From Methylobacillus arboreus (GTDB lineage: Bacteria > Pseudomonadota > Gammaproteobacteria > Burkholderiales > Methylophilaceae), in assembly GCF_020532725.1 (NCBI RefSeq), contig NZ_JAJAVC010000003.1, positions 558,001-622,000 of the forward strand: DNA of 64,000 nucleotides, written 5' to 3'. Made by a program: the position numbers and the translations under genes. The notes under the pieces were generated by a model that saw nothing but the letters and a program-made list of their open reading frames with translations, searched no databases and was not told where the DNA came from. Each line of letters opens with the position of its first letter. Position 1 is the stretch's first letter. This document shows, in pieces, positions 13,723 to 28,218 of this stretch.

Positions 13723-13980
13723 GTGTTCCCGTTATATTCGTGGCCGCGCCGGAACCGGTTTTTGTGCGGAGCAAGGCAAGAGGAGAGAAGTTTGGTCATT
13801 CCAAATGAACGACGAGTAACGCAGAGCCGTGCGAAAACCGGCTCCGGCCCTTCGGGTTGCTGTGGCAACTGGCCCCATGCTGCGTTACGGAACTTGGCAA
13901 GGGAGTGCCATTGCCCGCGTCCCGTGCCTTGCCTGTCACCAGTTGCCACAGCAACGCGGACACGAATATAACGGGAACAC
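13723..13980 (+). ncRNA. Structured repeat element, copy A (candidate RNA)
   Basis: A 258-base element between phi and fae. The ends are perfect 20-base inverted repeats (13723-13742 and 13961-13980). Inside, 13755-13769 pairs with 13827-13841 over 15 positions, three of them G-U on this strand. A CCCTTCGGG turn follows. Then a 17-pair stem (13856-13872 with 13939-13955) encloses about 66 bases with a GGCAAGG/CCTTGCC hairpin. Copy B at 27123-27309 has the same core with different outer arms. No open frame is convincing. It is called ncRNA on structural evidence only; transcription is unproven. Confidence 0.5.
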
Positions 13981-14062
13981 ACCCTTGTTGCCATGAAAAT
14001 ATAGCCCAGGACGCTGTCGTGGCAGCTAAGATCAGGTTTTTCGTATGGAAGCAAATTATTGA

Positions 14063-26209: not shown

Positions 26210-27121
26210 ATGAATAGATGGATCGTTCTATCGTTTTGCATCATGTTGCTGGTATTGGCCTTGTTGTTATGGTCCGCAAGCAAACAGAAGCAGGTCCAGG
26301 CCAAGGCACGGCTCAATTTTGAACAGGCTTTGCCCTATTTCGGCAAGATGGACAACCTATTGCCGGGACAGCATGAAAGCTGGATAACACGCGCCAGGCT
26401 GCGCTTTGCGGTGGCATTTTGGTTTGAGCCGGCACCTTGGCATATCGTCGTGATTGGTGGATTCCTGCTGCTTTTTCTCATGCTGGGCAATGTCTACATG
26501 CCGATGTGGCAAGCCTCATTGTGTACGCTGATATTGGCTGCCGTTGTGCTGGTAGTCGTTCCCTATCTTCGTTTACGTCGGCACCAGCGCGTGATTGTTG
26601 CGCAAATCCCGCTTTTTATTGACCAGGTTTCGCGGGCGCTATCCACCGGAAAGAGTGTGGAAGGGGCGGTGCGTGGCGTGACCGAGGATATGCAAATGCC
26701 GCTCCGCGCAGTATTGGATCGTGTGGTGCGTGCGACTGACCTCGGGGTGAGTTTTGCCGATGCGATGCAAGCGGCTGCCGAGCTGCACCACATCAAGGAG
26801 CTGGGGCTGATTGCATTGGCAATCCGTATCAGCAGCAATTATGGCAGTTCGCCGCAGGAGCTTTTGAAAAGCATTGTGCAGATGATACGCCAGCGTGAAC
26901 AGGCACAGCGTGAGCTCGCCGCCATGACGGGGGAAACCAAGATTACTGCCTGGGTGTTGTCATTAACGCCTTTACTGATTGTGGCCTACATGTTTTCAAG
27001 TAATCCGGGATACATCGACATGATGCTGAATGATCCATCCGGCGCCTTGATATTCAAGGCGGCGTTGATCATGCAAGGTGTGGGTATCCTGATTTTTTGG
27101 CGCATGATGAAGAGTATTTAG
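26210..27121 (+). CDS. tadB: Tad inner-membrane platform protein TadB
   Basis: A 303-residue member of the T2SF family that forms the inner-membrane platform with TadC. Membrane segments lie near the N terminus (VLSFCIMLLVLALLLWSA), around residues 80-120 and at the C terminus. The T2SF domain is marked by FIDQVSRALSTGKSVEGAVRG and MTGETKITAWVLSLTPLL. The ATG at 26210 after AGGAGGAG is preferred over a GTG three bases earlier. Structured element B follows directly after its stop and separates it from tadC. Confidence 0.9.
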   Translation: MNRWIVLSFCIMLLVLALLLWSASKQKQVQAKARLNFEQALPYFGKMDNLLPGQHESWITRARLRFAVAFWFEPAPWHIVVIGGFLLLFLMLGNVYMPMWQASLCTLILAAVVLVVVPYLRLRRHQRVIVAQIPLFIDQVSRALSTGKSVEGAVRGVTEDMQMPLRAVLDRVVRATDLGVSFADAMQAAAELHHIKELGLIALAIRISSNYGSSPQELLKSIVQMIRQREQAQRELAAMTGETKITAWVLSLTPLLIVAYMFSSNPGYIDMMLNDPSGALIFKAALIMQGVGILIFWRMMKSI

Positions 27122-27122
27122 G

Positions 27123-27309
27123 GCCTGTTGATGTTTTGTTTACGACCGCGCCGGCGCCGGTTTTTGTGCGGGGTAAGGCATGAGGAGAGAAGTTTGGTTA
27201 TTCCAAATGAACGACGAATAACGCAGCACCGTGCGAAAACCGGCCCGGCCCTTCGGGTTGCGCGCCAAATGGCGCAGCAACGCGGCGCGCGAACAAAACG
27301 TCAACAGGC
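27123..27309 (+). ncRNA. Structured repeat element, copy B (candidate RNA)
   Basis: A 187-base element between tadB and tadC. The outer arms, 18 bases each (27123-27140 and 27292-27309), pair fully with one G-U on this strand. The 15-pair core stem CCGGTTTTTGTGCGG / CCGTGCGAAAACCGG is identical to copy A, and most of the 57 bases between its strands are shared. The CCCTTCGGG turn and a GTTGC/GCAAC stem also recur, but the tip of the last stem is GCGCC-AAAT-GGCGC instead of the long arm of copy A. Transcription with the tad operon is expected from its position. Confidence 0.5.
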
Positions 27310-27315
27310 TCTGGC

Positions 27316-28218
27316 ATGAATACCTGGGTAGTCATCAGCGTCGTGGGCTTGTTGGCAGGCAGCGTGATATTGATGATCGCTGAATTTTCAAAGCGTACAC
27401 GGCGTGATGCGAATGCCCGCTTCGATGAAGTTTTTGGCCGTAGGCGTGGCGTTCACCTGCCATCGCCAAAACGGGGCCTGGAGCGCTTTATCGAGCAGCT
27501 TTCCATCCTGCCTTCAAGCAAGGACCGAGAAATCCTCAAACTCTTGGTACAAGCAGGCTATAGGGGCAGGGCGCGGATTGTTTTCAATGCGTTTGTCCGC
27601 CTGGGGCCACTGGCCTTTGCCATCGTCGTGATGCTGGTGACATTGATACAAGGCCAGGACATGTTCCGTTGCCTGTCGCTTGCCTTGTTTGGATTTGCCT
27701 TTTTCTATGTTGGTATCCGCTATTTGCTGCGTTGGCGGGCAGCGCGCCGGCGCAAGCTGATCAGCAAGGAGATCACTACTTTTCTGCACCTGTTGGTCAT
27801 GCTGTTCGATTCCGGTTTATCACTGGAGCATTCCTTACGCATTATGGTGGAGCAGGCTGGGGACATCATGCCTCATCTGGCGCAGGAGCTACAACGCGTG
27901 CTGGCCAGGATCAGCACAGGGCAAGATCGAGGAGAGGCATTGCTCAGCATGAGCCAGATGCTCGATATTCCCGAATTGAGCGAGGCAGTTGCCATGTTGA
28001 AGCAGGTGGCAGAGCAAGGGGGTAATGTGCGTGATTCCATGATGCGTTATGCCGCGCTGGTCGAGGAGCGCCAGTTTTCCATATTACGCGAGCGTGTCAG
28101 CAAGCTCTCGGCCAAGATGACGATCGTGATGATGATATTCATGTTTCCGGCGTTGATGATCTTTATAGCCGGCCCTGGCTTTATTGGGTTGGGCAAGGCA
28201 TTGAGTGGACAGGGGTAG
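27316..28218 (+). CDS. tadC: Tad inner-membrane platform protein TadC
   Basis: A 300-residue T2SF-family membrane protein, partner of TadB. An N-terminal membrane segment (VISVVGLLAGSVILMIAEF) is followed by FIEQLSILPSSKDREILKLL, two central membrane segments, FLHLLVMLFDSGLSLEHSLR and a C-terminal membrane hairpin MTIVMMIFMFPALMIFIAGP. The ATG lies only seven bases after the right arm of element B, with no strong ribosome site, so the element may influence its translation. Confidence 0.9.
   Translation: MNTWVVISVVGLLAGSVILMIAEFSKRTRRDANARFDEVFGRRRGVHLPSPKRGLERFIEQLSILPSSKDREILKLLVQAGYRGRARIVFNAFVRLGPLAFAIVVMLVTLIQGQDMFRCLSLALFGFAFFYVGIRYLLRWRAARRRKLISKEITTFLHLLVMLFDSGLSLEHSLRIMVEQAGDIMPHLAQELQRVLARISTGQDRGEALLSMSQMLDIPELSEAVAMLKQVAEQGGNVRDSMMRYAALVEERQFSILRERVSKLSAKMTIVMMIFMFPALMIFIAGPGFIGLGKALSGQG

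Follow-up and report, generated by a model that had tools for sequence, protein, structure and literature searches.

Elements A and B in the window

The window, i.e., the whole stretch of 64,000 nucleotides from Methylobacillus arboreus that was analysed, carries two related elements, A and B (Table 1). Element A lies between phi and fae (gene names as in the preliminary description), which are co-directional, and element B is inserted at the stop codon of tadB, just before tadC. Both elements were found where the preliminary description had located them, and its account of the closing arms, which pair at 20 of 20 positions in A and over 18 bp with one G–T in B, and of a shared core containing TTTGG-N5-CCAAA was confirmed. 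Both elements are also much more strongly folded than chance would give, with z = −8.2 for A folded as DNA and z = −7.9 for B folded as RNA, each relative to dinucleotide shuffles. The fourth stem that had been described for A contains a second, reversed copy of the 55-nt module, which had been overlooked; it is this module that has been deleted in B.

The tadB and tadC genes are adjacent without any insert in six relatives (G001, G002, G003, G004, G005 and G007), showing that B is an insertion, as exactly this junction is empty in all six. A check for target site duplication showed that the left TA of B is present and the right TA lost, while the ends of A, including its left terminus, are decayed. 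We also note that B provides the last letter of the stop codon of tadB (TA-G) and that a few bases separate its end from the start of tadC (27119–27316), so that the translation of tadC may be affected.

Table 1. Features of elements A and B, in window coordinates
Feature	Position	Strand	Remarks
Element A, full-length two-module MITE (family 1)	13723..13984	+	262 bp
A left outer arm (terminal inverted repeat)	13723..13742	+	pairs with 13961–13980
A hairpin 1 with module 1	13751..13845	+	55-nt module at 13771–13825; R1 match 75.2 bits, E = 1.8e-15
A tip CCCTTCGGG	13848..13856	.	separates hairpins 1 and 2; CCC-NNN-GGG conserved between modules
A hairpin 2 with module 2, reversed	13859..13952	-	module at 13879–13932; R1 minus-strand match 84.1 bits (L006 1616–1709)
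A right outer arm (terminal inverted repeat)	13961..13980	+	pairs with left arm
Element B, shortened copy (module 2 deleted)	27119..27311	+	193 bp
B left outer arm	27121..27142	+	resembles IS5-family IS ends
B hairpin 1 with module 1	27153..27247	+	module at 27173–27227; R1 match 75 bits (L001 1534–1628)
B tip CCCTTCGGG	27249..27257	.	
B short hairpin GTTGCGCGCCAAATGGCGCAGCAAC	27257..27281	+	remnant at the site of the lost module 2
B right outer arm	27290..27311	+	

The family in M. arboreus

A DNA search of the window's genome returned about ten related copies, one of which (L004) is 86% identical to A over the whole length. Comparison of the copies revealed a common plan, in which a TAGGGYCTGTT... 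end is followed by hairpin 1, the CCCTTCGGG tip, hairpin 2 and an inverted matching end. The element is a palindrome of about 270 bp whose two hairpins carry the same 55-nt module on opposite strands. The closing arms of A and B had been considered unlike in sequence; seen from the other copies, however, both are drifted versions of a single inverted-repeat end, approximately TAGGGYCTGTT-SMY-GTTWTRTTY, of which A carries the variant CCC/GGG and GTTATATTC, and B the variant GAT/GTC and GTTTTGTT. The genome also contains a second family, which follows the same two-module plan but differs in its arms (TAGAGCCTGTTCACGATC...) and ends (TAGAGCCTGTTCACGATCTTTTCATAGGG); its loci are L053, L054, L057, L058, L061, L063, L064 and L065, several of which are shortened.

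The suggestion that A and B belong to a multi-copy and apparently undescribed repeat is borne out. Apart from chance miRNA matches far below threshold, an Rfam search of A and B returned nothing. A literature search by sequence strings returned no paper and one by keywords returned general MITE and ERIC papers, so far as these sources go; an earlier partial description in the ERIC literature is possible (e.g., Zo 2011, cited in PMC10969869). No transposase bracketed by the family ends was found in the M. arboreus genome, whether by end pairs or by PF13340, suggesting that the copies are probably orphans.

The module and its distribution

The module, with the consensus GCAAGGC...GGTNATTCC...AACGCNGC, closes both hairpins. 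A covariance model, R1, was built from 24 modules that had been aligned without gaps together with their arms. In this alignment, 85.9% of the cells are paired vs. 56.1% in shuffles, and the pairing falls to 32–40% when the partners are slid. Both sides have changed at 34 of the 38 pairs, i.e., the arm covariation that the preliminary description proposed to check is present. The search of genomes with a covariance model, also proposed there, gave R1 matches in 162 of 399 genomes of the order (E ≤ 0.001) and in 113 of 398 genomes across the phylum (E ≤ 1e-4); ten candidates were scored per genome, so that the copy numbers are minimum values. Independently of R1, named genomes were scanned for an exact pattern, which was found in Colwellia, Shewanella, Pseudoalteromonas, Pseudomonas, Azotobacter, Halomonas, Thiobacillus, Nitrosomonas and others among the matches listed. 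The modules are arranged (+,−) in 108 of 110 adjacent pairs, with a spacing that is nearly always 7–15 nt, and the tip across about 110 elements reads mostly CCC-TNC-GGG on one strand and C-GNA-G on the other.

In the phylum search, a family found outside the class in small MAG-derived genomes (f79) has many carriers, with up to ten copies scored. Genome G309 has 239 matches to TAGGSYCTGTTGACGTTT when up to one mismatch is allowed, which suggests a burst of more than 100 copies; many contigs break within these matches. Solo palindromes, consisting of two inverted ends with almost nothing between them, were observed at L110 and L111 in genome G210 and at L118 in G309, and are possibly deletion products of the element.

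Terminal repeats and transposases

In G210, ten near-identical copies of 268–270 bp lie at unrelated sites, most of them flanked by CT...AG. The 21-bp ends of these copies (AGAACCCATTTCATAAATAGG) also bracket an element of ~855 bp, and about ten such end pairs occur in the genome; L105, the one ~855-bp element that was examined, has two overlapping frames that encode an IS5-family transposase. A plasmid search with the G210 element gave no match. For family 1, a similar IS is found on an Azotobacter chroococcum plasmid, where an IS5-family element of ~860 bp has the ends CTAGGGTCTGTTGACGTTTC and CTAGGGCCTGTTGACGTTTC. The ends of this Azotobacter element (CTAGGGYCTGTTGACGTTTC) resemble those of B, and a comparison with both ends of B gave a score of 12, with p about 0.0005 by shuffling, while the decayed ends of A match the IS ends weakly, with p about 0.02 at best. 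An IS5-family transposase as the universal partner of these elements is not supported, as NF033580 matched in only 6 of 16 carrier genomes and none of the matches was recognised with the ends of the local element.

Outer arms of the type TATACCCAAACCACTTCAAGATGCAGG are seen on the copies in Colwellia, Shewanella, Pseudoalteromonas and Vibrio. A query of this type returned 264 plasmid records, in many of which the match lies at an annotated IS630-family transposase, and two IS630-family plasmid elements that were examined whole have such ends on both sides, the right side being imperfect. The Colwellia-type copies share their TATACC...CTTGAAGATGC ends with IS630-family elements and match R1 with E = 1e-14 to 1e-18, as does the copy on a Pseudoalteromonas plasmid with E = 1.9e-16. 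Depending on the genome, one homologous core thus has ends of the IS5 type or of the IS630 type, and the simplest reading of these sequences is that the core may have moved between the IS5 and IS630 systems. On the E. coli plasmid pHNFP671 (L272:1389–3539), an IS630-family element directly adjoins the cfr resistance gene.

Strand bias and the maintenance of pairing

Selection on the fold of a transcribed strand would tolerate G–U pairs on that strand but not A–C mismatches, and this distinction was used as a strand test on about 110 elements. The preliminary description had put A and B forward as a candidate RNA or RNA-mobilised repeat, i.e., the + strand would be transcribed, its RNA fold selected, the arms changed in a compensatory manner and G–U pairs tolerated. 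The stable fold, the strong covariation and a tip that is UNCG-like when one strand is read agree with such a functional RNA, and so does an excess of G–U within and next to the module: at most 8 pairs from the module, the hairpins hold 153 G–T vs. 24 A–C in the module's own orientation, and inside the module the counts in that orientation are 37 vs. 15 and 101 vs. 34. However, the outer arms, read on the strand with the TNC tip, contain 2294 Watson–Crick pairs, 65 G–T and 69 A–C, and the module hairpins at 9 or more pairs from the module contain 94 G–T and 98 A–C. Outside the modules, the mismatches are therefore unbiased between strands, an outcome that the preliminary description had itself named as counting against its reading. 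Its observation that the non-Watson–Crick pairs are all G–U on the + strand is correct for A and B, where the four G–U pairs lie at wobble positions 5, 6 and 8, which are conserved next to module 1, but it does not hold generally across the copies. Even the excess near the modules changes strand between the first and the second module of an element. The tip is not decisive: UNCG-type loops are exceptionally stable in RNA and GNA-type loops in DNA, and the tip would form a UNCG tetraloop as RNA on one strand and an equally stable GNA loop as DNA on the other. In addition, no Rfam match was found, the elements have no preferred orientation where the flanking genes are co-directional (13 vs. 15, p 0.85), and the copies behave as DNA insertions with transposon-type termini, as is evident from B interrupting a junction that is empty in the relatives. 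A functional RNA is thus rejected as the main reading, and we regard it as very improbable. A role at the mRNA level after insertion has a reported precedent in Yersinia, where the orientation of ERIC affects the stability of the upstream transcript (PMC2229807), and the positions of B within the tad gene cluster and of A between co-directional genes would be suited to it; yet the 76 contexts show no preference in orientation or for convergent or divergent neighbours, and such a regulator appears unlikely.

If the fold of an RNA is not what keeps the arms paired, two other processes come into question. Replication template switching has been documented in E. coli (PMC7202029), and it creates and maintains hairpins with compensatory changes (PMC8794818). 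Among the ten copies in G210, substitutions occur at only three sites in 270 bp, and the mirror positions 15 and 256 of 270 have changed together in two copies (L100 and L101), as a one-step template switch between the arms during replication would give; one further copy has a 2-base gap. Template switching predicts that paired arms drift without strand bias, and such drift is what is seen. Alternatively, the folded DNA strand itself may be selected, i.e., hairpins or cruciforms formed from single-stranded DNA would be needed for transposition or for binding of a host protein, and pairing would not be a matter of mutation bias. This is consistent with arms that are paired in nearly every copy across classes, with one module per strand, each in its own orientation, and with the strand-specific wobble pattern of the module, in which position 20–36 is G–T in 76 of 146 cases. 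In contrast, the mirrored double change in G210 is explained by templated correction without any selection. We consider selection of the folded strand a serious possibility, although somewhat less probable than its opposite. Both processes can act together. The mismatches and wobbles of the module have been kept from Beta- to Gammaproteobacteria, and since template switching would erase such imperfections, their retention argues that the module is under selection.

Comparison with known repeats

Among the repeats most similar in kind are ERIC (also IRU or RU-1; 127 bp, in enterobacteria and vibrios), which are likewise palindromic, non-coding and MITE-like, with TA ends, a long hairpin, multiple copies and a mostly intergenic location. 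The Colwellia/Vibrio-type members even have similar ends (TATACCC...TTCAAG.TGCAGG). However, E. coli ERIC is a single, shorter palindrome without the double module or the tip, and R1 scored it at only 7.2 bits (E 0.25 in 727 bases), which is not above the neighbouring chance hits, so that membership in ERIC was rejected. Nor do A and B have the TATACCC...GGGTATA ends of ERIC: their ends are of the TAGGG(Y)CTGTT type, and within the superfamily TATACC ends occur only elsewhere. When E. coli ERIC (L246:301–427) was compared with IS630-family elements carried by Vibrio and E. coli plasmids (L272 and L273), its ends resembled theirs with a score of 13 (p about 0.0005), and on this basis it is possible that IS630-family elements mobilise ERIC.

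With IS5-derived MITEs, the family shares terminal inverted repeats as in IS5-family IS of ~855–860 bp and a probable CTAG/TA target, but its interior is not an IS remnant; it is a conserved double-hairpin core that also occurs between IS630-type ends. IS630-mobilised MITEs such as RUP of pneumococcus (PMC2229807) also use a TA target, and the gammaproteobacterial members have ends as in an IS630-family transposon; RUP differs in host group and core, and A and B are not IS630-ended. REP/BIME and REPINs resemble the element in their paired palindromes of opposite orientation, high copy number and extragenic location (PMC3116915, PMC3733652), whereas REPs are palindromes of 20–40 bp with a GTAG or CGTC tag and the element here measures about 270 bp and has long terminal inverted repeats, so that size and anatomy do not agree. 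Integron attC sites and retrons were also considered as readings, and both were set aside when the IS ends came to light.

Interpretation and significance

A and B belong to a family of dispersed DNA insertions, which have ends of the transposon type around a conserved double-hairpin core. Both are short (262 and 193 bp), non-coding and bounded by terminal inverted repeats, and both dispersed copies and occupied and empty sites were observed. Ends common to an autonomous IS in the same genome were seen in G210; for family 1, the matching IS is that of Azotobacter. We therefore interpret A and B, with a probability of roughly 0.8, as copies of a non-autonomous DNA transposon (MITE) that has IS5-type inverted-repeat ends, carries the double hairpin as a conserved cargo and keeps its arms paired mainly by template switching. 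An IS5-family transposase acting in trans would move the element, which would insert at CTAG/TA sites. The two hairpins, set in opposite orientation around the CCC-NNN-GGG tip, would present one module on each DNA strand, and template switching during replication, of which G210 provides a direct example, would transfer a change from one arm to its partner, such that pairing is kept while the sequence drifts. Judging from its conservation, the module is most likely a one-strand hairpin bound by a host or transposition factor, and with one module per strand the element could work in either orientation. Against this account, this IS5 subfamily is missing from most of the carrier genomes tested, the link between ends and transposase is sequence-based, and selection of the folded DNA strand is another process by which the arms would stay paired.

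The presence of the same core between IS630-family ends elsewhere suggests that the core outlives changes of transposase. MITEs are normally remnants of one IS, and it is unusual for one core to occur with the ends of either of two unrelated transposon families. The finding also implies that strong covariation need not mean RNA; counting G–T vs. A–C by strand separates the two cases and could be used in RNA-discovery scans. The IS630-type ends make IS630-family transposases testable candidates for the mover of ERIC-like repeats, which is listed as an open question in a review (PMC2229807). The element has a conserved core that is widespread, being found in between about a quarter and two fifths of the sampled genomes, and it is absent from the libraries and papers searched. 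Tentatively, and with odds that we put slightly below even, the double-hairpin core may be a persistent, transferable non-coding cassette that is repackaged between IS5 and IS630 ends across Pseudomonadota, as its 55-nt module, of which each strand has one, would be recognised in the form of a single-stranded hairpin by a conserved factor that aids its spread.
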